Shown here: in pieces, positions 16,662-64,000 of the stretch | Position numbering within the stretch: the first letter of the stretch is position 1 | Layout of the letters: each line of letters begins with the position of its first letter | NCBI GenBank assembly: GCA_943736015.1 | Contig: OX031059.1 | Span: 21,260,501-21,324,500 of the forward strand | Direction of reading: 5' to 3' | From: Tridacna crocea | Taxonomy: Eukaryota > Mollusca > Bivalvia > Cardiida > Cardiidae | Length of the DNA: 64,000 bases | The notes under the pieces: model-generated | Databases searched by the model: none | Told to the model about the DNA's origin: nothing | Seen by the model: the letters and a program-made list of their open reading frames with translations, nothing else | Program-made: the position numbers and the translations under genes

Positions 16662-19600
16662 CTAGAACACGTTCTTAAAGAATCGACCATGAGTCCCAAA
16701 TGGATTACTTGTGGGAAGTGGAGCAGATGAAAGTAAGGTAAGATCTTTTGCATCAAAAATTGTTAAGTTTGTTTGCTGCGAAACTTTGTCAAAAATTGGA
16801 AGTATCAAAACACCATCATCTTCTTCTGTGCCGTCTGGATTCGGCTCAAACCAAGCTTCGTTGTAATATTTATTCTCAGAGTACCAGTATTTGTCATTAC
16901 CGGTACACACGTCTTTCTTAACGATGGCCATATTCAGGAAATCGGTGTGATTCAGATTAAAGGCAATGCCATAAATATAACAGTATTTCTTATATCGATA
17001 ATTTTCGTTGATAGTTGGGTATTCCAGCTGTTTGATAAACATTTCCTTGAGCTTGGATGGAAATGTACTGACTTTCGCTGTCATCGATTGGAGGTCCAGG
17101 TGAACTCGCTTCAGAATAGGGGTCGCTGCCTGCGCTCGTAATGTAACGTCACTCAGTTTTGTCATAGGCCCTATTTAGTGTCAACAACGCGGATCCATCT
17201 TTGTAAACAGCTAAGTCCATTACAATTTCACTTTCACTAGGCTCATATGCATTAATAGCATGAAGATAAAATAAATTTTCCCCCTCGATTGTTTTCGAAA
17301 TTCCAGTTTTCAAATCAATAACGTGGTACTTCGTAGATGCATTGGGATCCCATCTGAAAGCGTCTAAAGGAGACAGATTTTTCACCATCATCTGTGGATC
17401 AATAAACAATGGTAGAGTTGATAGGATGGCGTACCGAGGAGTTACCGGAAATGAGTGCAAATACGAAAGTTGCTCAATTTCTACCTGTGCGATTAGTTCT
17501 CGTTCATTGCCAGATTTTATTCGAATCAACCGGAAGTGTGGTTTATTCCATGGCAACATACTATTCACACCAATGAATGTCAAATGGTTTGTGGTACCGG
17601 GTTCCAGCATTGGGTGGCCAGAACTCAAGGGAAGTGGGGCGTCAAATGGGGTGCGGCCTGGATGATCGGGCTTCAATGGACCCATGGTCTTTAGTGTGTA
17701 GGGGTCAAACTCATATGCTTTCCAGCAGTCACTAACAACAACAAAATTTTGTTCACCAGTCTCTGAATTGGTATAGTTCAAAACATTTACGTTCATATTG
17801 TCTAAACCGTTTTCAAACGACTCTGCCAACTCAACTATAGACATCGGCGGATCTGTTGGCGCCCCGAGTAAATATGGCGCAAAATCATTCATTTGAACAG
17901 ACTGCTTGTAGGAATCTGATTGGACCATTTTTGTGGAGAAAAAGACACTCCCGTTTCCAGGAAAACGCCAGCCTGAAAGTTTAGCTGTGGCGTCCAGGGC
18001 ATTAGTTACCTTTCTGTTTCCAAACTCAAATCTTCCAATTCCATTGCGAATCTGAAAGTGAAAAACTTATGGACCTTAGAAACGAGGCAAATTATAATTA
18101 TATTGAAATACCCTTGCTGTTTCGAAATTTATATTGGAAAGTAGGCTACTTGCCCTTTGCAATTCTACTGTAGAATTACTGGTGTTTTTTCCTTGAATAG
18201 TAGTGTTTTTTTTTTTATCAAATTTACTAATTTATTTACGTAAAATGATCTTAACGGCGGTATTTTTATTAACAGTTTGGCGCAATTTCTTATGTAGGCT
18301 AATTTATCATAGGGTGATAGGGTGCTGTCAAGAAATGTATGTAAACATTGATACAGAATCCTGAGATAGTTGAAAGGCTCAACAGCTGCCAGTAAGTATT
18401 AACCATAAGATGATGAAATAAATTAGATGTCATATTTCTTCTGATTATTTTGTCAACGAATGCCAGTTTTAAAAGTATTGATGTCAAGTTAATTAACCAG
18501 ATTTTCGGCAGGAGGAATATATTCACTGTGACGGGGAAATAATTTCCCCCAGTTTAAATTACGACCTTTCTTTATCCATAAAATTTCTAAAAATAGACAC
18601 ATGAAATATATTTGTCTGTTTTCATCCCTAGAATGTTTATGGTCAAAAATCTCCCCAAGATTACAAAATTTTAGACTCTTCATATATGAAAGGATAAGCA
18701 GACGACAACAGAAATGTGATTAAAGCTCATTACCACACAATCCCGACTTTTAATGACCCTGATAAAGAAAGCCTTTTGAAAACATTGTGGGAAAAGGAGA
18801 AAATGCTGGTAACCAGTATTTTCTCCTTTTTTATCCACAATGTTTTCTACCCTATCGAAACCAAATTACTATTTTTGATTCCTGTTTATTTTGTTTTCTG
18901 CAAATGCTTTCAATTTGGGCTAGTTCAAAATTTTATTAAAGAGTTATAATGATGGATTTTTTTTTTCTGTGATATAAAATGTGGTCAGAGGAGAAACAAA
19001 ATTGGTCGCAAGAAGATATTTTTTTCCAAAATTGTTCCCTAGAGAGTCCTTGGTTGTTAGGGTATTCATAATACTGGATTTAAATTCCTAAAATAACCTA
19101 AATTAAATATTCTATACAGATACCAAAAAACCGAAGTGTTGCAATTTTATACCAGTGTTAAAATAATGGATTTTTTTTTTCTGCGATATAAAAAGCAGCC
19201 GATATAGCTCAGTAGGTAGAGCGTAGGACTTGTGAACACAATGTCCTACAGGTTGTGGGTTCGAATCCCCGGCTGGCCAACTAAAAATTACTTATAGTCT
19301 TTCGGATGAGACGTTAAACCGAGGTCCCGTGTGACGGTGCTACACACCGAGCACGATAAAGAACCAGGCGGAATTCTCAGTAGTTTCGTCCTGTATCCTT
19401 GCACTATCCCCCGTAACAACTAACCGTCTTCTGGGGGCGTCGCTCAGATGGGCAACCGGTAGCGACGATAAATAAACGAAAATAATCAATGCGATATAAA
19501 ATGCGGTCAAAGGAGAAAAAAGATTGTCGCAAAAAGATATATTTTTTCCAAAATGTCCTCAAAAGAGTCATTAGTTGTAAGGTCTTCATAACACTGGATT

Positions 19601-23839: not shown

Positions 23840-25516
23840 ACTTAGTCTCCGCCTGATTCTCAAGAATTTTCCAAGTTTCAAAATAACACGATGTCTAATT
23901 GGCTATACCAATTGGTTTAGCCAATCAGAGATTGTGCTTCTTTCTATATGTAAACAAGGACTATGAAAATACGATCAAAAATGGTTTTTGGATAGGGACC
24001 CTGATTTGACCTGGACAGGAAGTCCTTGAACCATTTAACATCTGGTGTAACATAAAGATCAAGGATCTGATAACTTATTTTAGGAATGAAATGGCAATAA
24101 AAGGTCATTAGGCCTTAAAAGAAACGATCCCCGAAAACCATCCGGTAGTGAGGGTATGTTTTAAACCAACTCCACTGAGGTGCGATTCCTCTAAGGTTCG
24201 AAATTTCGGTCAGAAGGCTGTGAATTTTAGCAAGAACGACAACATTGCTGTAAGACGCATTGACCGTAGTAAAAGCGTATCGGAAGCTTCATGATCGCCA
24301 ATTCATGGCGCTTATTCTGTCATTGTTAAAAAATTAGGTAGCGGGATCCCATTGGACTCAGAAAGGCACACACGTTGATCATGTAGAAGTATTGTAACCG
24401 CAGCGCGAGTAACTTAGCTGCTCGCAAGCGCAGCGCATCGAAACAGAAGCGTCGAAAAATTTGTTCAACTTCAGGCATACTGCAAGACCTCCCCTAAAGT
24501 TGGTGTCACTTCAGAATTCTAGGGCCAACTCTAGGCAAGATGACATCAAACATGGGAGGCTCTGCTCTCATTATTAGAATAAAGAAGAGTATAGAACTTA
24601 CATTGTGATTTCTGAGGTTTCCCTGATGACCGAAATATGACATTCGCTTTACAGACGACCAACAAACTTTTGGCCCTCCTTCTTCGGCTAGCTTTTCATT
24701 CAACACCCAACCTTATTAATCTATTGTTCATGATCGCAAGCTACTGGAATCAATATATCCATTTTCTGCGGAGGTTGCCAATCAACTGCTGCCAAAGCAG
24801 TAAAACCGCCGATTTTATATTAAAAAATGTTCCAACAGTGCAACAGAAGCACAGCTCTTGTGTTCAGATCGTGTAGGTCGCAGTTAATATGTAAATTGTA
24901 GACTAAGCGCAGCCTGAAATTGCGTGTCTTAGCGGAAACGTTGTCGAAACGTCCTTCTAGAAAACCCTCAAGAGCCCTAGAGTCACAACAAAAGCGCAAC
25001 AAGACCATGACCAGCGCAGCAAGATAGTTATATATTCCTAAAATTTTGTAAATGTCGATGTCTAGATAGAACTGTTCATAAGATTTTGGATAAGCACAAT
25101 GATCGCCATAAGCACAGTGGAATTGCCACCCAGTGGAATGTAGGTGAAAAGCAGCCTAGATATTCGCCGCTTTTTAAAAAACATAAAAGATCTCCGGATC
25201 CTACTATCACGAAAAATGATTATAAGGTCTATGCAAATTTTACATTTCATATCTGACTGACCAAAGGCTGTCCTTCAAGGTTGAATGTTTAATAGTCGAA
25301 ACTAGGCATTCAAGAAAGTATTACGTGTACATCCCTAATCCAAGGATATATTTCATGGATAGTGACCAAAAGATATTCCAATCAACAGGATTGAGCACCA
25401 GTGTTTTTGAGGATTCATATTCGTAGACTGAACTTATCTTTGACCTTTTCAACTCATTATGTTGTGGTAAAGTGTAATGGAATATTAAAAAAGAAAATTA
25501 AAGTACAGAGTATTTG
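23840..25516. other. Intergenic, nothing recognised
   Basis: Short frames only (for example 24706-24506 minus, 24637-24876 plus), with no family motifs or clear repeat ends. Confidence 0.45.
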
Positions 25517-35400: not shown

Positions 35401-35590
35401 CGCAACACGCAATAATGGATATTCGGACATTTGCGTAAAGTGTCGTCTCGGATCAGCCTTCGCAGTCCACGCAGGCTAATCCGTGACGGCACCTTACGTT
35501 AACATTAGATTTTTTTTCTTACAGTAGATTTGCGTGAAACAGAAAATCACCTGCCCGACACATTACGCAAATGTCCGATTGTTCATCATA
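35401..35590. mobile_element. Double-palindrome MITE, second palindrome deleted
   Basis: Contains CATTTGCGTAAAGTGTCGTC, a hairpin around TCGCAGTCCACGCAGGCTAA, the spacer TACAGTAGA...GAAACAGAAAAT, and the end ATTACGCAAATGTCCG. Better copies are at 41277, 47690 and 54748. Confidence 0.75.
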
Positions 35591-35760: not shown

Positions 35761-38731
35761 ATGGCGCAAATTTGGTTGAAGCTACAGCTGTGTTATATAA
35801 TTCTGATGCATTTGACTGTCCGTAGTGAGAATAAAACAATTCAAGATGCTAGTGAAAATATAGATGACTTCGAAACGCGAATATTTTTCTCATCAAATGT
35901 TAAGGAAATGGAGAAGCAGGAAATTAAGTTTGACAAACCGATACCACGATGGCTGCGGGGAACTTTAGTAAGTACAGTATCCGTATATCTATTAACAATT
36001 CTTAATAACATTCAACATTTCAAAGTAACGCATTTTCTAATTGGTTGGAATAATCAAATGATGAGCCATTCGGAATTCTGGTCACTTTCTGAATATTCAA
36101 TATGAATAAAGATGCACGTTCAACAGATTGGTGAAGACAGTTCCAGAAATATGTTGAAGGAAGGAGTGATAGAAATTTAATGACATATTTACGTAATCTT
36201 CAGCTAGATCTATGTAGTGTTTTCAGGAAATATTTCAATTTTTACCTGATGACAACCCTTTACACGTGTTAAGACTGAAACTATTCGAAGATAAAAATTC
36301 AAACTTTGCTTAAATGCTGGGTTTTGTCTTAAAAGGATACCAACATTGGGAGAGGGCATCCCGGCTTCACCATGTGAGGAAAAGCTTTCTTCGTCAGGTT
36401 CTTTTAAATACGAGTTAATTTTAGTAAGCGATTTAGATCTACATAGGTTTCGTGATTTCCATTTTTTCAATGTGGAGTACCTGTATATTCTTTTAAATGC
36501 TATTGCATAAAAATACATTGAGTGCTTGCGTTTAAGTCCGCGTGTTAGGACTAGCAAGTGAACCCATAGAGCAAACAATACCAGTCAGACAAGTAAGACG
36601 AAGTGTGGCCATTTATTTTAAGTCATGTAATTTAAAAGGCAGACTGCCACAGATTTTGCTCTCTAAATCCATTTTTCTTGCGAATTCGTTTAGAGACACA
36701 GTCTGTTTCGTGGCTGTGTAAATAAAGCGAAATAAAACACTGTGTCGTGGCTGTGTAAATAAAGCGAAATAAAACAACCGAAACATGAAATAGACTTGGT
36801 TTATTTTTATAATGATGAATTTCAGAAAAGAAAATGAATCTAAGTAGAAAAAAAGATAGGCGGCAAGAAGGTCAAATTACCGTCATGCACAGTATATAAG
36901 GTTTCTACGCAGCAGCCTTTTTATTTGTTTGTTTACGTGCATATTGAAATTAAAAGCCAATTAATTATTTGAAAAAATCCCTTCCCCAACTGTTTACCGG
37001 TAGGCTTTTAAGGTAGCACATTTGAGTATCATGTAAGAGCAGGGATCTTATATACATGTGTATGTACGGTACCTGATAAGAGCTTGCACCTTCTGGCCCA
37101 ATATCGTAAACATGGATTTTTCTAACGACATAGATATAGTTCCAATACACGAAGTCTGGTCTTGGATCTCATACGTCGTCTAGTTCAGTTCAGAGTATAA
37201 GATTTCAAATTTTCTGAATCTTAGTGGATTGCATTTTTAGCGGGTTTTACTTTTGGGCGTACATTTCAGGTTTGTCAAAATTTGTCGAATAACACTTGAG
37301 AAAGTATTTATATGTACTAATCTATGCTGTGTGATACAAATTTAGATCCGGAATGGTGTTGGAAGATTTGAAGTGGGACCAAGACAACTCACGAATGCTC
37401 TAGACGCCTTTGCTAAACTGTCGAGTTGGACTTTTCCTGGTGACGGCGGTGCCTATTTTTCCACCAGAATGCTGTACAGCAATAGCTATACACAGTCTAT
37501 GAAAGAGTCCACAGTGGCGCCATTTCTCATGCTTGATAAAGTGGTGCCACCATTTACTCCCGTCGAAGAAATTGAAGCCTTTAAAAATGGCCCTGACAAT
37601 ATGAACGTGAATGTCTTGAAAACGTTTGACAGTTCGAGCTTTGATATACAGTATGTGGCCGTAAGCGATTTTTTGCCAGTATACGAGTTCAGTGCGAATA
37701 ACTTAACGACTGTTGGAAGGATCTACCCGTCTGTGCCAGGAGAGATGCCAGTAGGACCAGTCATTGCATTAAGCACTGCCCATATGTTGCCCGAGTATAA
37801 CAGTACAAGTTACATAACTTTCGGTACATTTGCCAGCGTTCTGCCTGGACAAAAATGCATTCTTAAGGTTATGAGAGCGACCTCTGCCAGTAAACGTGAA
37901 CTTTTAAATGAAATTAAGATCGACAAAGCCTCATATATGCATTCATTTGGACTGACTGAGAATTATGCGGTGATTTTCGCAGTGCCTTTCCATGTGGAAC
38001 CGATGGGGATGTTGAAACACTTCAAAGCGATGGATGCATTCAAATGGGACCCGGAACTACCCACCGACGTCTATGTTACAAATATACACACCGGGGAAAT
38101 GCATTCACTTCAGACAGAAACCATGTTTTTTCTTCATGTCGTGAATTCATTCGAAATTAATTCCAACGAAATTGTTGTCGACATAGCCGTGTATCCAAAT
38201 GCCAGTAATTTTAACAATCTCGAACTATCGGTATTACGCAACAAAACACTTCGTTCCAAGGTGATACTGCCGACTTTAAAGCGTTATACGATACATTTAA
38301 ACACAGGTGAAGTAATAGTCAAAGATATTCCGAAAAATCCTCAGTTTCCATGGGCGTCAAAACTCGATTATCCAACAATCAATGAAAACTATCGTTACGG
38401 AAACTATTGTTATACCTACGGAGTCGTGTATAGTTACGATGGTTCTGATTGGTTCAACATGATGCTCGTTAAAAAGGACGTTTGCAGTGGAAAAGGCGAC
38501 AAAGTTTGGTACAGAAAGGATCACTACTTTAATGAAGCTTTCTTTATTCCAAAACCAAAAGGTGTATCCGAGGATGATGGTGTCCTTATCCTCCCAATCT
38601 TGGACAACCAAAATGGCAGAACAAATTTGACGATTTTCGATGCCAAAGACATGACCATACTCTCGTCTGCTCTTTTACCGACCAACTTGCCATTTGGTAC
38701 CCATGGTCGATTCTTTGGTGATAATTTGTGA
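35761..38731 (+). CDS. Carotenoid oxygenase (BCO/RPE65 superfamily) 2, intact
   Basis: Exon 1 is 35761-35967 and exon 2 is 37346-38731. The intron has GTAAGT and TTTAG ends and sits, as in paralogue 1, between GTL and IRNG in phase 0. The product is 530 aa, the usual family length. The family are Fe(II)-dependent carotenoid-cleaving enzymes or retinoid isomerases. Iron ligands by position: H215 (STAHML), H268 (SYMHSF), H333 (FFLHVV), H522 (FGTHGRFF). The EDDGVLILPI motif is present. The second-shell Glu in the family LEYP/ELPQ motif is Asp here (D410, KLDYPTINENY), unlike paralogue 1. MAQIWLKLQLCYIILMHLTV at the N-terminus looks like a signal peptide, so the enzyme is probably secretory, unlike cytosolic BCO1 or mitochondrial BCO2. 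Substrate cannot be read from sequence. Confidence 0.94.
36625..36960. repeat. Copy C of the carotenoid-oxygenase flank segment, in intron of paralogue 2
   Basis: Shares TTTAAAAGGCAGACTGCC, ACACAGTCTGTTTCGT and GAAATAGACTTGGTTTATTT with copies A and B. It includes a 38-bp direct duplication (GTGTAAATAAAGCGAAATAA twice, 36718-36776). It is inverted relative to this gene's direction when compared with copy A and paralogue 1. Confidence 0.7.
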
Positions 38732-43567: not shown

Positions 43568-44998
43568 ATGAAGTCTGACAAAGAGAATTCTCCCAAAAAG
43601 AATACAACAAAACTTGACAGTGCGCAAAGTGTAGGACTGCATCGACATAAAACAGATCTAGATAGGACGAAAACCGACAAATTGCGTCAATCTTATCTTG
43701 ACGAAGAAGACTTCTTACGAAAAAAATACGTCAAAACTGGTTCTCCAAGACGCTCGTCGATTGACGCCAGTATATTAAAAGTGAATGAAGTAAACTCGGT
43801 AGGGAACCAATCTGTAATATTTAATGAAGGGCACATATCCCAAAAGCCGCTGAGAAAATCTACTATAAGTGATGATTCGAAAGACACACTAGACAACTGG
43901 AGAAATATTGCAGATTATGAGAGAAATCTTATTATTGACTCGTATAAAAGAAGTATTTTGTTTGGTGAAAAAAGACAGAAAGATGGTGAAGACAAAAAGG
44001 TGACCCTTGTGAAAAAACAGACACTAAAACCGATCAATATACAAAGTCCAACCATTGAGTTCTCGAACGATGGATACGACGATGAAATTAGAATGATTCA
44101 AGGCGGATTTCGCAAGAGGAGTAACACGGCTGATTCTATCGATTTAGACACATCGATAAATAAACTTCGATCTAGACGACAGTCCATCGAAAATATGTCC
44201 GCCATTCGACTACCAAGTATTAAACCGCTTAACAAATACAGTCCTCGAACACGAAAAAAGAAAACGCCATCAACATCTTCGTCCATGGAAATGTCAGATG
44301 ACGATTGCGGTGAAGTGAAGTCAGACCTTACCACAAGTATGTCTAAATCAGCCGACTCAAATAAAGGCATACTGAGAAAAACAAGTCCAAAACCGGTGGC
44401 TAACGCATCCGTATTCATTCACACTGATCCTGAACCACAACCGCACTCGGGAAAAATTCGCAGGTCATCTTTTGATGTTAGTTCATTAATGGAGGACGAA
44501 AACCCCTCACTAGAAAAACTACGACGGAAAACGAGGAGTCCGAGTGTGTCATTTTTACCCATAATACCGCAGTCACCAACTCTCATCAACCGGGAAAATC
44601 TTAGTAGGTCTACTGCTCAAGAACAGGGACAACCATCAATACAATTTCAAAATGACTCGACCAAAGACAGTGCAGATTCAAACCCTATAAGTTCAGAATG
44701 TAGTCCCCGCTTGTCTCGCAGATCAAGTCTTACAACAGCTGCTTTAAAGTTAATGGTGGACACGCATCATGGTGCTGCAAAACTTAGATATATCGCTCGA
44801 CTTGCAAATGAGATGGAAAGAGAGGAGACAGCAAAACTTCCACCTGAAGAAAGGCCTACTGTTGTTGAAAAGAAGCAGGAAGATATATCTGATAACACTT
44901 TTGAGGAACTACGTAACTGTAGATATTTAAGGATGAATGATAAACAAGAATCCTCGGAAAACGATTGTAATAACGGAAGTATATCGCTGTCTCTCTGA
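43568..44998 (+). CDS. Intronless basic Ser-rich protein with repeated RRxS motifs, unknown
   Basis: This is a 476-residue single-exon frame with animal-like composition and no repeats at DNA level. It is Ser/Lys/Arg-rich, mostly disordered-looking, with no signal peptide or membrane segment. Basic Ser/Thr motifs recur: RRSS at 61, RKST at 96, KRSN at 183, RRQS at 203, RRSS at 298 and RRSS at 384. Several are followed by a similar tail such as IDASIL, FDVSSL or LTTAAL. These resemble PKA/CaMK or 14-3-3 sites. The only region likely to fold is a helix at about 389-420 (AALKLMVDTHHGAAKLRYIA), followed by PPEERP. I do not recognise the family; a regulatory scaffold is possible but unproven. An AATAAA lies 39 nt after the stop, supporting a true gene end. 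Confidence 0.82.
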   Translation: MKSDKENSPKKNTTKLDSAQSVGLHRHKTDLDRTKTDKLRQSYLDEEDFLRKKYVKTGSPRRSSIDASILKVNEVNSVGNQSVIFNEGHISQKPLRKSTISDDSKDTLDNWRNIADYERNLIIDSYKRSILFGEKRQKDGEDKKVTLVKKQTLKPINIQSPTIEFSNDGYDDEIRMIQGGFRKRSNTADSIDLDTSINKLRSRRQSIENMSAIRLPSIKPLNKYSPRTRKKKTPSTSSSMEMSDDDCGEVKSDLTTSMSKSADSNKGILRKTSPKPVANASVFIHTDPEPQPHSGKIRRSSFDVSSLMEDENPSLEKLRRKTRSPSVSFLPIIPQSPTLINRENLSRSTAQEQGQPSIQFQNDSTKDSADSNPISSECSPRLSRRSSLTTAALKLMVDTHHGAAKLRYIARLANEMEREETAKLPPEERPTVVEKKQEDISDNTFEELRNCRYLRMNDKQESSENDCNNGSISLSL

Positions 44999-47689: not shown

Positions 47690-47935
47690 CAGAAAAGAGG
47701 CATTCGGAAATCTGCGTAAAGTGCCGTCTCGGATTAGCCTGCGCAGTCCGCGCAGGCTAATCCAAGACCGCACTTTACGACTACATTATATTTTGTTTTT
47801 CAGTAGACTTGTACAATACTGAAAATTACATAAAAGACGGAAAGTGTCGTTTCAGATAAGTCTGAGTGGACTGCGCAGGCTGATCCAAGACGCCACTTTA
47901 CATAAATGTCCGAATGCACCTATGCGCGTGTTGGA
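47690..47935. mobile_element. Double-palindrome MITE, full length
   Basis: GCATTCGGAAATCTGCGTAA, first palindrome GCCTGCGCAGTCCGCGCAGG, spacer with CAGTAGACTTG, second palindrome around GAGTGGACTGCGCAGG, end AAATGTCCGAATGC. Confidence 0.87.
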
Positions 47936-49963: not shown

Positions 49964-50238
49964 CACCAAAATGGACTTGATTGCTCTTAGCCGTCGAAGA
50001 GGCTGGTGGCTGTACATAATTCAGCACAACGGGTGGCTGTTTTTAATTGCCAAATATTTAGACTACTCACGTTGCTGAAACTCGTGAATATATATGAAAA
50101 AAAAAAACCGAAGAAAAATAACCTTGAAAAAGGGGCTTTTTTTTCAAAATGAAAGATTTTATAAGATAGGTTCAATTTTACAAAAAATAAATAACAACTG
50201 AATTTTATCACATCGCAAAAATGAATATAAAATACTGA

Positions 50239-50321
50239 TGGATGGATGGATGGATGGATGTATGGGATGAATAAATAGATAGATAGATAGATAGATAGAT
50301 AGATGGATGGATGGATGGATG

Positions 50322-50356
<35 letters not shown>

Positions 50357-50419
50357 GGATGGATGGATAGATGGATAATGGATGGATGGATGGATCATGG
50401 ATGGATGGATGGATGGATG

Positions 50420-50461
<42 letters not shown>

Positions 50462-50491
50462 CAGATAGATAGATGGATGGATGGATGGATG

Positions 50492-50534
<43 letters not shown>

Positions 50535-50650
50535 GAATGGATGGATAGATGGATAGATGGATGGATGGATAGATGGATAGATAGATAGATGGATGGATGA
50601 ATGGACGGATAATGGATAGATAGATAGATAGATGGATGAATGGATGGACG

Positions 50651-50697
<47 letters not shown>

Positions 50698-50840
50698 GGA
50701 TGAATGGATAGATAGATAGATGGATGGATAGATAGATAGATGGATGGATGGATGGATAGACGGATAATGGATGGATGGATGGATGGATGGATGGATAGAC
50801 GGATAATGGATGGATGGATGGATGGATCATGGATGGATGG
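50239..50840. repeat. 600-bp GATG/GATA tetranucleotide array
   Basis: Alternating blocks of GATG and GATA repeats with rare GACG or GAATG variants. Open frames of more than 200 codons on the minus strand (Ser-Ile-His-Pro repeats) are artefacts of the 4-bp period. Confidence 0.97.
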
Positions 50841-51020
50841 ATGCATTTTATGCTATTTCATAATGTTTCATTTTATTTTATTTTGTTCTATTTCACTTAT
50901 ATCCATTGTATTTTCATACATTTTATAGCGGCAGGGGAGCGGTCGGAAACCCCGATGAATATTACTAACGCAACCAATCATTTTCGAGAATTCTTTATTA
51001 GGAATGAAACATTGGTTTAA

Positions 51021-52492: not shown

Positions 52493-52694
52493 ATAAACTG
52501 CGGGCAAAAATGCAGAGTATACCAAGGAAACTTGTATTCAATTATATATTAGATAAGTTCTACGTAATCGTGTATACCATAAATCCACAAATACATCTTG
52601 TCTTACAACCATGTCGGTATAAAATCCACTCGCCGCAACAGAAGCGGATCATTTACTACGTTTCGTTGTTGAGCGCCTTCAGAAAACTGCTAGG

Positions 52695-55600
52695 ATGAGC
52701 TTTTTATTCAGTAAGGGCAAGGAACTTCTGTCTTCTAACATTGCTTCATACCAGGATAAACTGCAAGACAATGTGGCTAGTTTAAAAGAAAACATCAACA
52801 ATATCCAACCACTTGATAGCATTAAAAGCCAGGCGAACAATTTGACTAATGAAGTCGGTAACAAATACAACAGGGCGGTGGATGGACTTCGCAAAGGGGT
52901 AGATTATGATGCAGTTTTAAGCGGAAGAGACCAACTGTCCCTGCTTACTGGAAGAGGAGAAAATTTGCAGGAGTCAAATAATGAGATATCTACAACGGGG
53001 AAAACTGATGCTCAAAAAACGCAGCAGTTTGCCAGGAATGATTCACAGGTTAATGGAATAAATGTTGCAGGCTCTAACAGAAGAGCTGGTAAGAACGTTT
53101 CGCTGACCCGTGCTGTTTCCGACGTAAGACATAATGTAAGCAGAGAAGCCAATGTTCAACGAGGACATAAACTACGCCAGTCACATATTCAGTCTGGTAC
53201 TAGGGAAGTCGGTGCACGTATATTCATCAACGGTGGCCCCATAACTGAAGCACGTGATACATCAACACCTAACTTCGACTCTCAAACTAGATTTCGACCA
53301 GTCAGTAATCCTGTGCGGTCATTCAGTGAAGCTGACGATAGAGCATTTCAAATTCTTGGAAACAATCTAAACCCAAAGAATTTACGCCAGAGTCGCACTG
53401 TTGTGGCTAATGGAAATGTTCAAGGACCTCACATTCGAGCCAACGACCAGGCAATAAATGCTGAAATGCAATTTATGAGTGGTGCCGAAAATAGTCTACA
53501 AAAGGTAGCCAGCAACCTTGGAGCACCGACTGAAAAATTCAGTAAACTTCAAGGTACCGCTCAGTCGGCTTATAACATGAGAAATCAATTGAACAGGGAG
53601 AGTCTCATTAAAAGGGGACAAAGTTTTAAGGCAAGCCATATTGATCCTGGGATATCACAGGTTGGGAACAAATTTTCGGGTATTTTCACGATCCCAGACC
53701 AAACAAGCAACAAAGTAGATGTGACAACACCGAAAGGCAATGCTGTTGGTAAGACTAACGGCATAATACCTGGCAACGCAACTGAACATATGAATGGTAT
53801 CATTTTAGGTTCACCGCAGTATGAAAAAGTTACCGCAGCTGGGGGTGCCATTCGATCTGGGTTCGATATGAAAAGTAGATTCACTAAAGATAACCTGATT
53901 CAACATGGGCAAAGTCTAAAAGCAACACATATAGATCCTGGAAGAGCTCAAATTGGTACCAAGTTTTCAGGTATTTTTGGCTTCTCCAATCAAGCACAAA
54001 GTAACGTAGATGACACCGAAGCCCCCACTGGAAGTGCCAATACAAGCGTGCCAATGGCTATGAATCCTCTACAGACATTGAAAAACAAGCAGAACAAAGC
54101 TCTTGAAGATCTAGAGGCGGGAAAAGAAAATCTTCGTCAAAAAGGACTCGACACTTTGGAGGCAAAGACCGGGTTCACAGGGGACAAGCTTCAAAAAGGG
54201 AAGGAATTCCTTGGTGGATTTGGGTTTTTTGGCGGTGGGTCAAAAACCGGAAAAGAGAAAACCGAGAAAAATTCAGATGGAAAACAGGGCGAAAATGAAA
54301 GCACTGCGACAAAAGGACAACAAAAGCTGGCCGGTCTGATGAGTCTAAATAAGAAAGAAGACACAGAAAAGAAAGACAAAAACGAAAATGACCTCTTTGG
54401 GAAAGCTACAGACATCGGGAAAGGTTTGTTTACAGCCAACTTGTCCGACACAAGAGGTCCATCTTGTACCTACACCTCAGGAGTCATTGTTCGTCTAGCG
54501 CTGATTGTTGCCAATGCTCTTACGATCGTGCGGACAGTTCATATCACTAACAACCACTGGAATTGGGGCTGTGCACCCATGTGTTCTATCTTCTTAGCAC
54601 TGGAGTATGCCATGGTGGTTTTCAAACGATTAGGCAGAGAATGGTCATGGTAAGTACAGAGAGCATATTCACTAAGCATGCTAAAATGCACTCTTAGTCT
54701 TGTTCTATCCCTAAAAAGTAACGCAGTTTCTTATCATAATTGGTATGCAACACGCGAAAAGGGGCATTCGGAAATTTTCGTAAATTGTCGTCCTGGATCA
54801 GCCTGCGCAGTCCGCGCAGGCTGATCCAAGACGACACTTTACAACTGCATTAGATTTTGTGTTACAGTACAAAACAGAAATGTACATTAAAACGGACAAT
54901 GTCCTCTCGAATTAGCCTGTGCGGACTGGGCGGGCTAATCTCGGATGACACTTTACGCAAATGTCCGAATGCCCCCATTTGCTTGTTTCAGGCCATATAA
55001 ACCAAGCAGTTTGGTTTATCTAATAAAAATCTGTAAAACGTCCTAAATTGTAAATTTTTTGAAAATCAGACGAAAGCTACGGGCGAAGAAATGTAACACT
55101 ATAAACAAAAAAAAAAATTGTTATTACTGTAACGTCAGCCTCTTTGAAAAATCAAGCCATTAGCTGAATAGTGGAATATCTTTATTCCGACGCATGTACC
55201 TCCCAAGTCCTCTCTTTATTCTACGACACAATGAAGGCAGGCATTCGGTAACCCGTATGTAACTACCTAGTAATTCTCTTACCGATCCTGTCAGCTCGAC
55301 ATTTCAAATCTGCCACTGGGGTTCGAATCCTTAGCCTCCCTCAGGGTGGGCAGATGCCCGGGTACCCGGCCACAGAGAATATATCATTCTCAAATCTCAC
55401 ATAATCGATGCATTTTATTGATCACGTGACATTTCTGCATTGTTAAGGATAGAAATCTAGAAATATCCTTAATTTGATGGTGCGAAATCTATTTAAGACC
55501 TTTGATCTATATGGCGACATGTTTTTCTTGTAATTCTCTTAAATTATACATATTGGTTTACCGGTTTGCAAGCTACAGTCCGCGCAGGCTAATCCGAGAC

Positions 55601-56266
55601 GGCACTTTACGGCAACATTGGATTGTACTACAGTTGACTTGTGCGAAACAGAAAATTACATAAAAACGGAAAGTATCGTTTCGGATAAGCCTGCGAGGAA
55701 TGTGCAGGCTGATCCGAGACGGCACTTTACGCAAATGTCCGAATGCACTTTTTCGCATGTTTCAGGCCATATCGCATTTGAAGTATGAAATATACCAACT
55801 ATAGATCTACAAGGAATCTGTTTTAGATCGCATAATGACATTATGAATTCCTCAAGGAATCAATGATATACTATGAAAAACAGCACTCTATTGTTCGATA
55901 TTTCGGCTATTGGCTTTTTCAAAAGTTTGAAAGTTTCGCACGCTTGAAAACCGTTATTAGCCGAAATATTAAACAACAGAGTATCGTTTTTCATAGTGCG
56001 TCTTTGGTCGGATTTGAAACTCGGGGAGGGAGAGGTAAAGCATATGAAAGGAGGCAAAAATTAACCTAAATCTATTTAAAAAAAAATATTCTGTTGCACA
56101 TAACCATTGGCAAATTTCTTTCCGATCAATTATTTTAATACATAATATGTTCAAACTATTATCATCATTATTCTTAGATTACTGTTGTAATTATTGCAGG
56201 TGGCTTCCATGTGTCCTGGTTTACCTAGTGACAACGCTACCATTAATATGGCAGATGCAACTCGAG
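52695..56266 (+). CDS. Repeat-bearing protein with a TMEM26-like membrane region
   Basis: Exon 1 is 52695-54649 and exon 2 is 56200-56266, joined by a GTAAGT...TTGCAG intron that splits a Trp codon and keeps the frame. Residues 1-590 look soluble and hydrophilic. A motif of about 25 residues recurs at 155-178, 306-331 and 403-428, best seen as RGQSFKASHIDPG and HGQSLKATHIDPGRAQIGTK followed by FSGIF; the last two are 97 residues apart. Residues 455-580 are Lys/Glu-rich. Membrane segments follow: about 597-617 (VIVRLALIVANALTIVRTVH), 626-643 and 653-671. The pattern R..W, LE, FKRLGREWSW, P, YLV, P..W matches the N-terminal half of TMEM26. Human TMEM26 has no such long N-terminal region. Function is unknown. 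Confidence 0.82.
54748..54995. mobile_element. Double-palindrome MITE in intron of the TMEM26-like gene
   Basis: GCATTCGGAAATTTTCGTAA, first palindrome GCCTGCGCAGTCCGCGCAGG, TACAGTACAAAACAG spacer, second palindrome around GTGCGGACTGGGCGGG, end CAAATGTCCGAATGCCC. Confidence 0.88.
55570..55775. mobile_element. Double-palindrome MITE, left end lost
   Basis: Right arm of palindrome 1 (CCGCGCAGGCTAATCCGAGA), the GAAACAGAAAATTACATAAA spacer, and palindrome 2 around GCGAGGAATGTGCAGG, ending AAATGTCCGAATGC. Confidence 0.82.
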
Positions 56267-56351
56267 GTAAATATCTTCTTGCAAATATACCATCGCTCAA
56301 TCATTTACAGATAACAACCCAGTATCTGATCAAGTCATTAAATCACGATTA

Positions 56352-56480
56352 AGTCATTAACTCATCATCTGAAGCCTTGAAAAAAAGCTTATGAAAACAT
56401 CTTGAGAAAATGCTAGTAATTAGAAAACGCTGGTAACTAGCATTTATCCTTTTCTCACATTGCTGTCTAGCTGTTCAGAG
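56352..56480. mobile_element. TTAA MITE fragment
   Basis: TTAACTCATCATCTGAAGCC and a degraded hairpin (GCTGGTAACTAGCATTTATC). Confidence 0.5.
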
Positions 56481-56676
56481 ACAAGTTTCAGTGTTAAATC
56501 ACTGGGCAGTTTATTAACAGATTACTCGATGGCAGGAAAAAGGTAGTGTAAAATACGATAACAGAGGTTCACAGAAAATGAAAAAAAACAACAATGCATT
56601 GATTTAACTTGGGAAACGAAAGGACGAATCTTGGTGGGGCGAAAACTGCGTCTCGGGTAAAAAAGGGTAACCAATG

Positions 56677-56857
56677 CCGGTGTAATGCAGAGAAATGACC
56701 CTGTCCTACAAAATGACTCGGGTCATTTTTCTACGTAGAGAAATGACCCCAGAAGTTATTTCACCACGTAGAGGAATGGCCCGGGTCATTTCTCTGCGTA
56801 GAGAAATGATCCATGGGTCATTTTGGAGGGGAGGGTCATTTCCCTGCATTACACCGG
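56677..56857. repeat. Palindromic minisatellite element with GGGTCATTTCTC units
   Basis: The ends are inverted: CCGGTGTAATGCAGAGAAAT and the complement ATTTCCCTGCATTACACCGG. The interior is repeated GAGAAATGACCC and GGGTCATTTCTCTACGTAGA units in both orientations. About 181 bp. Confidence 0.8.
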
Positions 56858-57509
56858 AAAGCCTCAATCTAGTGCGTGGTTGTTCCTGGATACAAGTAAT
56901 CTGTGCACCGTAATCTAAAACTAGAGATCTTCTTGCGATTATAACATGAAAAATGGTGCCCACGTCTCCATTTCAAGCTTTTCCACATTTAAACGTAAGC
57001 TATGATATTTCGCCTTAATACTTGAATTTAGTTTCTGTCTTTGAAGACATTAAACTTCACTCTCTAAGTCAAGTTTCGGCATCGTTGAGCATTATGAAAC
57101 TGAGTTCTTGTGACCTAGATTCTTGCAATATTATACCCTTGTATAGGTCATCATTTTATCATTTCTTAGATCTGTCTATCGCATTGATATGTAAGTTTTA
57201 CAAAGCCCTTTGTAAATAAGGCAAATCTCGGGTGATCCGTTAATCAAGTCTTGATATGCACCTTCGCCGGAAGTAAACTTCTCAAAATCTTAAAACTCCA
57301 CATACAAAGCAAATACTAGTCAAACTTTTCCGTGAAAATCATTCCAAATAAAAAACAGTTTTTACGTTATTTTCTAATGCAGTCTATCAAAAACGTTGGC
57401 AGTTCAGAGATATATTGCTTGTTTTGGCGCCGCAACGGTAGAACCGTATTTCATTCGCGTTTGAAAAGCGCCCTTGGAGCCAGTCATATTGTTTACTCGG
57501 CTTCCAGAC

Positions 57510-57640
57510 ATTTCGTAACAAGGTCATTTCGTACCTAGGCCATTTGTACAATTTTGGACATTTCGTAACCACCTATACTTTTTAGTTTGGTCATTTCATA
57601 CCCAGTTTTGAATATTTATTTGGTAATTTAGAACCTAGTT
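57510..57640. repeat. Short degenerate repeats (GGTCATTTCGTACC)
   Basis: GACATTTCGTAACAAGG, GTCATTTCGTACCTAGG, GACATTTCGTAACC, GTCATTTCATACCC: about six decayed 15-25-bp units. Confidence 0.6.
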
Positions 57641-57779
57641 TCAATACTATTTGCTTGTGTTGTTTTCCGAACGACATTGCTTTTGTGTATAGCTCCAACT
57701 GAAATTATGTTAAATTTCGCCAATGAACGGCTATGATTGTGTCCTACCATTATTTGTTCTTTCTTTTTTAAGAGTACAG

Positions 57780-57990
57780 ACTCTTTTTCTGCGTATTCTT
57801 TTTTTAAGATTTCGGTAGAAAATTGTGAATCATGTCTTCTTTTTCAAGAAGAGCTTTACAATTTTCAGAACGGTAAAGCTACATACATGTATTTCAGGCC
57901 AAGAAATGCACTGTGTAGGTTTATATCAAGCTACTTGATACAGCCGAGGGGCTTGTTCAACAGATCACCCAAAGGAATAAAATTGCTGAC
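57780..57990. repeat. Third partial copy of the dispersed repeat at 15405-15830
   Basis: Shares TTACAATTTTCAGAACGGTA, GCTACTTGATACAGCC and neighbouring phrases with 15670-15770. Confidence 0.6.
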
Positions 57991-58362
57991 TTGGGCATTT
58001 AGAATCTTATTTTCTATTTGTTGTTATCTTTGCGACCTCGAAACAGTAAGGGGTACTATTTTGTATGAGGCCACAAGAATGACTTGGTTTAACATATTAC
58101 AGATTAAATTGGTCACAACTGACTGAAAACGAGTACTTTTAAACCTGCCTCATAAAAAAAAATATGTTATGCCATGAAAGAGGACATTATGCAGCCTAAA
58201 AAAATCCATAAATTGCTCTCAGCACGGCAATTGAAAACTTGCAGTTGGGTAATCATGCGCGATCGTTTCAAGATGATTTTAATCTATGAAGCATATCAAT
58301 GCACCAGCTCCAAACTATAAAACAAGGTTGTCCTTATTACACCTTTACCAGACTAGAAATAA

Positions 58363-58534
58363 TTAACCCATTTATGCCGGAATTTTTATTTTACGTGATT
58401 TTTGTCAAAAGTTGTGAAAAGAAATGTATAATTGTTATATATGAGTTAATTTTTATCGATTGACAAATATTTCTCTAAATATTTGCAGTTTTAATTTTTG
58501 TCTACAAAAAGTAGACAATAGGCACGAATGGGTA
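58363..58534. mobile_element. TTAA MITE of a second family
   Basis: TTAACCCATTTATGCCGG at the left and GGCACGAATGGGTA (complement TACCCATTCGTGCC) at the right. Different from the TTTACCA family but with the same TTAA logic. Confidence 0.6.
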
Positions 58535-59063
58535 CGGGTAAATACTTGTTATAGTCTTTCTCAAAAGTCAAGTTACATTCAGCAAATGTCACTGATACAC
58601 TCACAGAATATGTTTTAGGTCACAAAACTACTCCTTAAACCTTTTTGATAATTTAAAAATATATACCAAAATACCAACATGTGACTTTGGTAACATTATA
58701 CAACAGAAACATTTGCTCATAACACAACCAGAAGTTTAACAAATTCAACTTTATTCAGTATGTTCTACAGTGTAATTTTTAGTCATTTTAAACAAATATT
58801 AACAGTTGCTGTAGTCTACGTCAGGAGGAATTCCTCAACATCAGGTGAAATTCCTCAAAAATTTTTAAAAGCGCACATCTCACATTTGCATTGTAATGCA
58901 TTCGTTCAAAACTGATGTTGTCTGGTACTCTTCTTTCCAAAAGCCCCTTGCAGACCCCTTATCTGCAAAAGCTTATGAATTGGTCTTTTAGCAAAGGCAA
59001 AAGACACCATTTAGAGAGATGTTCCAATGCAAGTCAAGAGGATATGAATGGCCAGTGTGTTCA

Positions 59064-59240
59064 GGTGCCATATTTGTTACCTATAACCTTTCTGAATTTG
59101 TCATTTTCATTGATGTGTGTATTGTCTCTAAAGTGAATGCATGTGACCAACATATCCAATCTGTCTCACCTGACAGCATTCGCTATTGTGTTCTTGCAAA
59201 CATTTTCAGCACTACTCTGGTAAAGCCGTCTGCTTGAAAC
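59064..59240 (-). pseudogene. piggyBac transposase fragment, degenerate
   Basis: On the minus strand a frame reads RRLYQSSAENV, then NTIANAVR, an in-frame TGA at 59168-59166, then DRLDMLVTCIHFRDNTHINE and NDKFRKV before another stop. This matches the conserved piggyBac core (RRRxYW..., NxMxRDRF..., LHFxDN...NDKLxKvRP). The TGA replaces what is normally an Arg codon. The catalytic Asp-bearing segments further on are not recognisable, so it is a dead relic. The plus-strand open frames over the same bases have no meaning. Confidence 0.75.
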
Positions 59241-59719
59241 CTAGCTATAACCAGATATCAACAATTTTGCCCTGAATACTTGAATATTTCGAATCTAGTA
59301 ATGTTACAAAGAAACTGTATGGTTCAGTGGATCATGATTTCAGTCACATCAGCAATGAGGAACAAAAAAATCCCATCTACAGATTGGGGAAGCCTGTCCG
59401 TATTCTATGACAGCATTAGCCACTGACAACAGTTGTGTTTTTCTCGTAGAAAAATATTTTAGCTCTCATTTGTCCAAAGAATAATGAGAATCACTGTTAG
59501 CGTAGAAAAGATACATTTTTTTTGTGATCGGGGGTGAGTAACTGCCTGTACAAAGTTGAAATCCCTTGTTCACAGTATATAGTCTACAGGTGACAGGAGT
59601 CGAACTACGGATCCCTATGGCCCAAATCATCACATAATTATGGGTGCGCAAGAGCCACTTTTTTCAAATATCCGAATAAATCATGTGCTAGACCGGTCCT
59701 TTGACATTCAGAAAATTGA

Positions 59720-59800
59720 CCAAGAGCGAAAAATATCGACTCAGGTCAGCCTGCGCGGACTGCGCAGGCTGACCTGGATCGATACTTTTCACAGATGCAT
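59720..59800. repeat. GCGCAGGCTGACCT palindrome fragment
   Basis: CAGGTCAGCCTGCGCGGACT pairs with GCGCAGGCTGACCTG; related to the double-palindrome MITE. A weaker relative is at 48425-48470. Confidence 0.65.
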
Positions 59801-60379
59801 TATGATCCCTTTTCATAGAGCAAGGCTAAAATATATCTATAAGCTAATTACATTTATTGAGCATTTAAAAAACTAATAACTGGTTGATGGTTGTTTCGTT
59901 TAATTGAATAGTATTTACTTGCCACGACATCCAACAAAATGCACAAAGCATGAAGCATGAAAAGTGGAAAAAACATGGTAAATAATAAACTAATACCTCG
60001 TTTTTGATCAAAGTTTTCAATTCCCTTAACCAGCTTTTCCACCAATCAAATCCCATGTCCCAGATTCATATGTGATCCAGAATGTACTCGTAATTAAACT
60101 CTTCCCTGCAGCTAAACCTGTGGTGTATACGCCTTCTGCTACATAATTATTAAATAAACAAATAAAAGAAAATAGATAGATAAATGAATGAATTTAGTAA
60201 TTTACTAACTGATAATCTTTGTTGGTTTACTTTCCACGCTTGCCACTTATTTTTCACTAGTATATATCTCTAAATTATATTTGTGCATATTTTCCTCTTT
60301 TTTTTTTTAAGGTTATGTTTTTTTTTTTAATGCTTTCGTCTGAAAACATTAAATATCAATCCTAGTATATGGACTGCAT

Positions 60380-60500
60380 CACGCGAAAGGGGCATTTGGA
60401 CATTTGTGTAAAGTGTCGTCTCGGATCAACCTGCGTTCAATAGATTAAGTCCGAAACAACATTTTTTCGTAATATTCTGTTTAGCGCAAGTCTACATAAT
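60380..60500. mobile_element. Double-palindrome MITE, partial
   Basis: GCGAAAGGGGCATTTGGACA and GTAAAGTGTCGTCTCGGATC, then decay. Confidence 0.6.
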
Positions 60501-60521
60501 CTAACCATCCCCAACTTTCAG

Positions 60522-60590
60522 CTGCAGGTCGAGCAAGAGTTACTCTCCTTGGAACTTATCGATTATCTGGTCCGAAAGGATTTCCGATAA
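60522..60590 (+). CDS. Possible terminal exon of the TMEM26-like gene
   Basis: After a pyrimidine-containing CCCAACTTTCAG acceptor, a phase-0 frame reads LQVEQELLSLELIDYLVRKD and FR before TAA. It fits the phase of exon 2 exactly, giving 696 aa in total. It does not resemble the rest of TMEM26, so it may instead be an alternative end or chance; the remaining TMEM26-like exons may lie beyond the window. Confidence 0.3.
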   Translation: MQVEQELLSLELIDYLVRKDFR

Positions 60591-61589
60591 CGGCCTGTCA
60601 TATAGGATTCAGAAGGGAAAATTTTTTGATCGACTAAAACACATTTTTCTTCTAAAATGATTAAAATCTATAACGTCGTGAAGTATTCTGTAATATCTCT
60701 ACTTTACTTCAATATAATTTTAATTCCTGTAGCAAAATGGGAAGTTGCGTCCATTTTGATTTAAAGTTACTGACCCATTGTCCTTCTTATTTCTATATAA
60801 AGGTTTAAGAAATTTGCTCATGCGCCGTTTTTGACGCTAAATAACATAAAAATGAATTGCAAGCAAAAAATCTATAACGTCTTGAAGTATTCTATGTTTT
60901 GTTGTGATTATGATCGAAGTATTCGTTTACATTTGTGAAATTGAGATCTTGCGTCCATTTTAGTTTAAAAACGACACTATCGTTAATTTTTGTATAAAAA
61001 ATGCAGTATCGAGCAAAGTGAGATTTTAAGACTGGGTGAAAAGATTTAGCAACGGATAAAGGGAAGATAAGAACTGATGACATGATAACCTTGTCTGTAT
61101 TGTTTTGTTAAACCTGGATCCTGTTTTTACACATTGTCCAAATATATAATGATTGTATTTATCATTTTTTCATTTTTATACATGTACGTGTATATTATTT
61201 GCATCAGTGAAAACTTTTAAGAGATTTGTAAAAACCATTATTTTCCCAGTATCGTCTTTTTTAATTCTTTTTGGAAAATAATTTCAATTTAGTTAGCATA
61301 AATTTCTTTAAATTGCATTTTTATTTATTGATTTATTTATTTATTTATTTTCTTTATTCTAAAGAAGATTGAATTTGTTGTACTATTGGATCATTATAGT
61401 AATTATGCAGTCAATAGACCAGTAACAAACTGTACAAAACAAGCAGTCTGATCCTGGGCCGAATCGGTTTTATCTTATGTGTCGAAATTCTTTTGGCTTA
61501 AAAAAATTGACGTATCAATATCAATATGTGACTAAAATCAGCAGAAAACAATTTGCGTTTTGAGAGTATTGATGTGACCCGTACAGCTT

Positions 61590-61805
61590 ACTCCCGAATT
61601 TCAAAGGTCCTGCATAAAACCTTTTGAAAACATTGTGAGAAAAGGAGAAATACCAATATCCAGTATTGATTCCTTTTCCTACAATGTTTTCTACTCTCTT
61701 AAAGTGAAGAATATCAATTTAGCTACATTTGATTTATTTTCTGAAATTGCTTTTTTTCTAAGTTGGTGAAGTCAAAAAGTTCTCCATATGGGAAAAGATT
61801 TTAAA
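61590..61805. mobile_element. TTAA MITE, diverged
   Basis: AACATTGTGAGAAAAGGAGA hairpin arm and TCCTTTTCCTACAATGTTTT complement; the ends are mutated. A SINE tail motif follows at 61876. Confidence 0.55.
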
Positions 61806-62096
61806 TTATTGACTTTTGAAAACACATGAGAGGGAGAAAATACATGTGATCAGATTGAAAATAGCGAGGAAATTTGAATATGTGAGCTGTCGCCATAAAA
61901 TACTTTTGAAAATGCATTAATCATCACACATTTGCAAGTAAAGAGCTAAAGAGAGAAGGCGGCAAATTGGACTTCCTTTTACAAGATCTTGTTAAACTTG
62001 ACTTTAAATCCTTATAAATAATCTCATAAAAAAATTATGATTTTAGTTTAAACATTTAGTTTTAATTTATTCAATATACTAACATCATTCATTTAC

Positions 62097-62426
62097 AACA
62101 ACATGTATTGCGAAAAGGATTGAAACGAAAGCATCAAAGCTTATATAGTTCCTCTCCCTAAAGAAGTCTGATTTTTTTCCTGATACATGTACTTTCTTTC
62201 CGATTACTAGTCCAGTCAAATTAGCCTTTATACCCCGTATAAATGTATCAATGTATACCATTACGTAACACCAATCAAGATACCCGATAGGCGTCTTATC
62301 TAACAGTGAGACTCGGTCATCATCGGAGAACTCCGGCACAATGCAAACGATCAGGGAAAAAGAAAGAAAATACGATAGTTGCTTTAAAAGGGTGTAAAAA
62401 GGGCTAAAAATGTATTTTCTAAATGA
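62097..62426 (-). CDS. Possible exon of a TRPM-like cation channel
   Basis: A 330-nt open segment bounded by a TTTTCAG acceptor and a GTAAAT donor, in phase at both ends (110 codons). It reads FRKYIFSPFYTLLKQLSYFL, then SFSLIVCIV, then GYLDWCYVMVYIDTFIRGI, then ERNYISFDAFVSILFAIHVV. The order is a short basic lead, a hydrophobic helix, an acidic loop, a second helix starting with a DW/EW motif, a basic linker and the start of a third helix. It resembles the S1-S3 region of TRPM-family channels. No neighbouring exon was found in the window on this strand, so it is partial or relic. The open frame extends upstream to 62603 but that part looks intronic. Confidence 0.38.
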
Positions 62427-62849
62427 CTGAAAACTACGCCATATTAAAGAACCATAAATAAGCTTTCTGACTTCCCTGAAGATAATTTTGATTTTCCAAC
62501 AATATTGTGCAGGCTGATTTATGTTTACCGTGTGCTCACAAAACCACTGACTTCTTCTAAAAAATGACGAAATTATTTTAAAAAGAACTGACCTATTGAA
62601 CATAAAGGTAAAAAAATATAATTTGTATATGGTTGGTTTGTTTATGATAGATCAGACAATACCTGTGTGGGCTGATCTGCCACCACACTTTCCCCAGCCT
62701 AATATACATTTACGTACATGTATTTGTGACGATGCTATGCAAAACAATTACAATAAAATGCAGTCTGTTGACTATGTAATAGCTCTATGCAACAGGTTGG
62801 AGATTAATGTTTTCAAAAACATTGTAACAAGAGAAGCCTCTTCATAATA

Positions 62850-63595
62850 TCCTTAACTTTGTTAGCTATATTAGCTATTCAGAAATATATCAAACCGAAG
62901 TATTTTTACTATTGTACCATTTTTGTTGATAAATCAATAAAAATATCAGAGATTGAATTCAAAATTATGATGAAAAAATCAGAGATAAAATTCCAAAGAT
63001 GCAGTAAACATATGTGCTGTTACATTTCGAGCGTTCGTGTCGCGCTCCTCCCCCGGCTTTAGTCTCATCATAAGAAACTTGTACTGCGGATATTTTTCTT
63101 TTTTTTAACTCTTCAGGGACTGGCAATGTATGACTGTCCCAATATTTAAAGCAGTTGTAGACAACACAATAAATATGGCTCAAATTATTCAATTTGTATC
63201 AATTAAGGCATGACAATATTGCTTGAAAAAGAGCAAATACTGGTCAAAAGCATTTCTATAGCTGACCATAATTTTTCAAACGCGTGCTTTCGGTAAAATT
63301 TGAGGTAGATCATATTGCAAGACCTGAAAAGAAAACAAATCCTACAAATTTTGGTACTCCAGTAATTTACAACCCCAGATATCCCGCAGAGTTGTTTTCC
63401 AATAAATTGAAACCCTCTACACTCGAAGCGCGAAATTCGGGTTATAAGTGCAAAGGGTTTGCAGAGATCGCCAGTCAATATATAATTCCGTATGTGATCG
63501 ATTTCACGGCCAAAAGGGATCAAACTCTCATAATCATAGCTTACATAGCGGTCAAATAACAGTTACCGGGTTTGATTTGCATGATAAAGTTGGCC
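62850..63595. other. Intergenic; decayed TTAA MITE and an unexplained frame
   Basis: A decayed MITE copy is visible at about 63105-63290. The plus-strand frame at 63284-63559 has balanced composition (IARPEKKTNPTNFGTPVIYN) but no recognised family. Confidence 0.35.
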
Positions 63596-63675
63596 ATGGC
63601 AGTCGTAAAGTGCCATCTCGAATCAGCCTGACATTACACAAATGTCCTAATGTCCCTTTTCGCGTGTTATATTAA
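63596..63675. mobile_element. Double-palindrome MITE, heavily deleted
   Basis: GTCGTAAAGTGCCATCTCGA and ACACAAATGTCCTAATGTCC with most of the interior gone. Confidence 0.6.
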
Positions 63676-63769
63676 AATATCACCGAAGAAAATATAAAAT
63701 TGTATACACTCATACAAGTCAAAAGAATCTGATGTATTGTTCTTTTATTTACGACTCCAAGTTTTGCAG

Positions 63770-63905
63770 GTAAGTATATTTAGTTACACCCTCGGTGACC
63801 CAGTTTCGATTCATTCAGTAACCGCACCTGGGTTGTTTCGCTGGTGTTTCCTCGTTCTCATGAATTATTCATGAAGCATTTTGCTTGGTGATCTCAGTCT
63901 TTCTT
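63770..63905. repeat. Dispersed repeat matching 12165-12300
   Basis: Shares CTCGGTGACCCAGTTTCGAT, TCATGAATTATTCATGAAGC and neighbouring phrases in the same order as at 12165. Confidence 0.6.
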
Positions 63906-64000
63906 GAAATTAATCTAAACTATTTCTGTCACAACCACGCTGTCATTTCCATTTTTTACTTGTCGATATCCAATCATATCGTTTGTTGCAAATCAAGCTT

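Follow-up and report, generated by a model that had tools for sequence, protein, structure and literature searches.

Mammalian TMEM26 proteins start just before their first helix. The mouse protein has 367 residues and the human protein 368, as stated in the mouse study (PMC3182993). That study also describes a deletion of mouse Tmem26 exon 2, by which one predicted helix is lost and the frame is shifted, and records no overt phenotype upon loss of the protein (PMC3182993). In breast cancer cells, TMEM26 reportedly reduces the expression of integrin beta1 (PMC5122400). Among invertebrates, the sea urchin gene model Glean3_10288 is described as 'similar to pecanex-like protein 1' with a partial Transmembrane protein 26 domain (Sp-Tmem26_3; PMC2830187). 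A literature search returned no paper with mollusc TMEM26 as its topic, judging by titles and abstract openings among the matches listed.

We analysed a stretch of 64,000 nucleotides of Tridacna crocea DNA (hereafter the window) and focused on the forward strand between positions 52695 and 56266. With a probability of roughly 0.6, we regard this locus as the 5' portion of a gene of the TMEM26 family in which a long arm encoded by exon 1 runs unbroken into the membrane core and is mostly disordered, cytosolic and motif-presenting. Its likeness to human and mouse TMEM26 lies in the first three helices. A start close before helix 1, which is a trait of the mammalian proteins and not a requirement of the family, is absent here, where the match begins at residue 595. 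The two also differ in size: 594 residues precede the match and 674 are already encoded within the window, compared with 367-368 residues in total for mammalian TMEM26 (PMC3182993). Exon 2 resembles the mouse exon 2 described in that study, as here too it carries a single helix and, at 67 nt, is frame-shifting; the gene structure agrees with that of mouse Tmem26 as far as the two are comparable (PMC3182993). Compared by description only, Glean3_10288 is similar in being an invertebrate gene model that joins a partial TMEM26 domain to other sequence, but differs in that its partner is pecanex-like, with no pecanex among the Pfam hits here (PMC2830187).

The frame that carries the arm is open on the forward strand from 52623 to a stop at 54651-54653. 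Its first ATG lies at 52695, giving 652 codons from the ATG. If 5.8% of triplets are stops, as in two other stretches of the window, the expected number of chance open runs as long as 676 codons is ~1.6e-14 for 128,000 starts. A strong donor, GTAAGT, begins at 54650, just ahead of the in-frame stop, so that coding exon 1 would span 52695-54649 and close in phase 2. This exon holds the 590-residue extension and the first two TMEM26 helices. Intron 1 (54650-56199) has GT...AG ends and is followed by exon 2 (56200-56266, 67 nt), which opens after CAG, with a G as its first base at the 56199/56200 boundary, and ends in phase 0 ahead of a donor GTAAAT from 56267. Spliced in frame, coding exons 1 and 2 together encode 674 residues, and the codon across the junction encodes Trp. 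The first-pass annotation had proposed one continuous frame uniting a repeated motif with a TMEM26 segment and an in-frame junction at 54649/56200. The open run from 52623 to 54651-54653 bears out the former, and the splice-site sequences, together with the Pfam match of the joined exons described below, support the latter.

Several further elements lie in and around the gene. Intron 1 contains five copies of an interspersed element marked by GACRRCACTTTACG, a sequence with 12 matches in the window at no more than one mismatch (0.02 expected), at 54779-55731, 35434-35498, 41304, 47715-47779, 60407 and 63604; these include three inverted pairs with arms 51 nt apart. A TATA-box-like GTATAAAA at 52617-52624 lies 78 nt upstream of the ATG on the forward strand. 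This pattern has 17 matches on both strands of the 64 kb, with 10.67 expected by chance, and a right-strand match within 100 nt has a chance probability of roughly 1% and was spotted post hoc, so we consider it only suggestive of a promoter element for the TMEM26-like gene. A four-base GATG-type tandem repeat of ~600 nt (50237-50843) lies 1.9 kb upstream of the ATG. Farther upstream are two pieces of RPE65/carotenoid-oxygenase genes on opposite strands, at 17152-18066 (minus strand, E=2.3e-38) and 37346-38728 (plus strand, E=2.8e-70).

Identification of the core as TMEM26 rests on the joined exons. We compared residues 595-674, comprising 57 residues from exon 1, the junction Trp and 22 residues from exon 2, with Pfam. 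This 80-residue query matched Tmem26 (PF09772) at E=1.2e-9 and 38.5 bits, above the curated cut-off of 22.2, over profile positions 8-83 of 285. Each half on its own is weak: the last 69 residues of exon 1 match profile positions 6-60 at E=0.083, and exon 2 matches positions 64-83 at E=0.11, colinear with the exon 1 part. That two weak colinear halves become strong once spliced is good evidence both for TMEM26 homology and for the junction. None of five controls (four shuffles and one reversal) matched PF09772, while three of the five weakly matched other families, below their cut-offs. Helices 1 and 2 (54477-54647), which coincide with hydropathy peaks, thus appear to lie in exon 1 and helix 3 in exon 2, and the proposal of a TMEM26-like membrane core in the first-pass annotation is supported. 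Tmem26 does not appear at E<=10 when the whole 652-residue product of exon 1 is searched against Pfam. The exon 1 end alone scored better with DUF4229 (PF14012, E=0.0045) than with Tmem26 (0.083); we rejected DUF4229 because its scores of 17.4 bits for the exon 1 end and 16.5 bits for the joined query fall below the cut-off of 27. A search of the core against the PDB gave a single listing at E 0.44, which is not meaningful.

Preceding this core is the extension, residues 1-590 (52695-54464), which we characterized by composition, hydropathy, and Pfam and PDB searches. It contains no Cys and no Trp (the first Trp is residue 591) and has a pI of 9.7. No 19-residue window with hydropathy above 1.2 starts before residue 588, so nothing within the extension suggests a signal peptide or a membrane-spanning helix. 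FoldIndex is negative, indicating an unfolded state, in 67% of its 51-residue windows, and the arm is accordingly predicted to be mostly, though not uniformly, disordered. No Pfam family exceeded its cut-off; Baculo_PEP_C (PF04513) reached 17.4 bits against a cut-off of 38, over residues 13-56 only, and was set aside. The sole PDB listing, at E 1.5, is not meaningful. Patterns from it matched 4 times in viral contigs and 72 times in prokaryote genomes, but neither these matches nor a search of phage records yielded a confirmed relative, as one would expect of an animal gene. Because the extension lacks a recognised domain, 'extension' is a safer name than the new domain combination first suggested. 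The earlier observation as a whole is partly confirmed, and its interpretation partly supported. We also tested kinship between the extension and a complete-looking, single-exon open reading frame elsewhere in the window (43568-44998, plus strand), and rejected it at a best E of 0.36. That frame encodes 476 residues, is Ser- and Lys/Arg-rich by eye, has an AATAAA ~40 nt past its stop and gives no Pfam match at E<=1.

The extension carries a motif that had been annotated as three copies of (R/H)GQSxKAxHIDPG. Two of these fit the motif as written: copy 2 (residues 286-335, 53550-53699), which contains RGQSFKASHIDPG, and copy 3 (residues 383-432, 53841-53990), which contains HGQSLKATHIDPG. Their motif segments, R307-G319 and H404-G416, are identical at 10 of 13 residues. 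Copy 1 (residues 135-179, 53097-53231) is degenerate; by direct reading, its motif (R156-G168, RGHKLRQSHIQSG) agrees with copy 2 at 6 of 13 residues and with copy 3 at 5. All three copies are nonetheless related beyond what shuffling produces, as revealed by alignment of fragments picked by eye. Residues 271-370, around copy 2, align with residues 381-470, around copy 3, at a score of 158, whereas the best of 500 shuffles reached 51. The 80-residue fragment around copy 1 (residues 121-200) scores 74 with the copy 2 fragment and 58 with the copy 3 fragment, exceeding all 500 shuffles in each case (maxima of 50 and 47, respectively). A self-BLAST of the product did not display the repeats, which we ascribe to a limitation of BLAST in reporting self hits; split fragments were compared instead.

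Silent-site comparisons suggest that part of this repeat has been conserved as protein. Across a 28-codon core that begins at residue 304 in copy 2 and at residue 401 in copy 3, pS is 0.70 and pN 0.15, with 5, 4 and 14 differences at the first, second and third codon positions. The 20 identical residues of this core were not reached in any of 5,000 random placements of an equal number of changes. The core was bounded by protein similarity, which lowers pN and favours a result of selection. Over the full 50-codon block, pS is 0.79 and pN 0.28 (14, 16 and 28 differences by codon position), and its 23 identical residues were reached in 15 of 5,000 placements, with stops allowed in the control. 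The flank shows no excess: residues 286-303 and 383-400 share 3 of 18 positions, a number reached in 4,126 of 5,000 placements. Between copies 1 and 2, pS is 0.86 and pN 0.52; copies 1 and 3 show no silent excess (dS 0.79, dN 0.83). Because silent sites are near saturation while the peptide is conserved, the core of copies 2 and 3 looks to have been selected at the protein level.

That silent sites in copies 2 and 3 are close to saturation also speaks for an old duplication. This bears on a different account of the locus, that such an extension is common to TMEM26 in molluscs or in invertebrates more widely and already sits unremarked in automatic gene models, which would make it an ordinary trait of the lineage and not a new architecture. 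The sea urchin model with its partial TMEM26 domain points the same way, as an unusual TMEM26 model listed before (PMC2830187). We judge the odds of this account to be evenly balanced; it is compatible with the explanation of the extension as an arm.

A rather less likely account is that the locus yields two products, namely a short, ordinary TMEM26 made by splicing an alternative first exon to position 54481, with the long form being either a second isoform or the exon of a separate gene that reads through into the core. An acceptor-like sequence, TCTTGTACCTACACCTCAG (54462-54480), stands where the TMEM26 match starts: followed by G, it ends at 54480 within codon 596, beside the first matched residue (595, at profile 6), and its pyrimidine content of 0.75 exceeds the 0.56 of the inferred acceptor at 56199. 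Comparable sites are common, however, with 83 of such strength on this strand of the window (~1.3 per kb), and exon 1 itself holds two sites with at least 75% pyrimidine, ending at 54480 and 54597. Moreover, the frame stays open through 54480, and no upstream first exon was spotted, albeit without a systematic search. Within exon 1 the core lacks its own start at or near the usual place, as the nearest upstream Met is residue 549, ~46 residues before the match. A further acceptor-like site at 56177, upstream of 56199, also has a pyrimidine content of 0.75, and by reading, its use would place TGA at the junction.

The remainder of the core, TMEM26 profile positions 84-285 (helices 4 and on), was not found up to the end of the window, in a weak scan that missed exon 2 as well. 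The three forward frames of 54650-64000 matched no Pfam family at E<=10. Seven TMEM26 core patterns, sought in all six frames of the window, matched three times without marking a core exon: two matches overlap within the extension (52926 and 52929) and one lies on the minus strand at 25013. A tblastn search of the window for further copies of exons 1 and 2 returned only a chance hit (E 8.3). A broken copy (a pseudogene or partial duplicate) with the first exons only is a very unlikely explanation of the TMEM26 part, even though no further TMEM26 exon was found in 54650-64000. The same frame scan overlooked exon 2 itself; the frame and both splice sites, donor and acceptor, are intact, as is the silent-site pattern; and genomes of this kind usually have long introns. 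The later exons probably lie beyond position 64000.

We return to the reading of the locus as a single TMEM26-family gene whose arm continues into the core. Human TMEM26 is N-glycosylated in the loop after helix 3 (N110), a loop whose exon was not recognised in the window. Glycosylation places this loop outside the cell, and with three helices before it, the arm would be in the cytosol. FKRLGREW, which links helices 2 and 3, carries a net positive charge, in keeping with a loop on the inner side. Since the first helix lies at residue 595, it cannot act as a cleaved leader. By analogy with the human protein, a cytosolic location is therefore most likely for the arm.

In this reading, exon 1 would encode the 590-residue arm and then, directly, TMEM26 helices 1 and 2, with exon 2 providing helix 3. 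The arm probably acts as a largely disordered tether that displays the short linear motif GQSxKAxHIDPGxxQxGxKFSGIF in two or three copies, and these copies would bind a cytosolic partner and keep it at the membrane beside TMEM26. A mostly disordered arm with a repeated, apparently selected segment most resembles a tether with docking sites, and we infer such a function from these features. The RGQS of copy 2 also fits basophilic kinase sites; copy 3 has His for Arg at this position, and copy 1 is without the Ser. We offer as a tentative proposal, possible but somewhat improbable, that one TMEM26 lineage gained a scaffold arm in the cytosol, bearing a repeated docking motif under selection, and so became a membrane-anchored multivalent recruiter.

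The function of TMEM26 is not settled, and a natural long-armed form provides a repeated motif that can serve as bait for a partner. Should the arm prove common to molluscs, it would date a gain, or a loss in mammals. If the recruiter proposal is true, the partner would be a direct handle on TMEM26 function.
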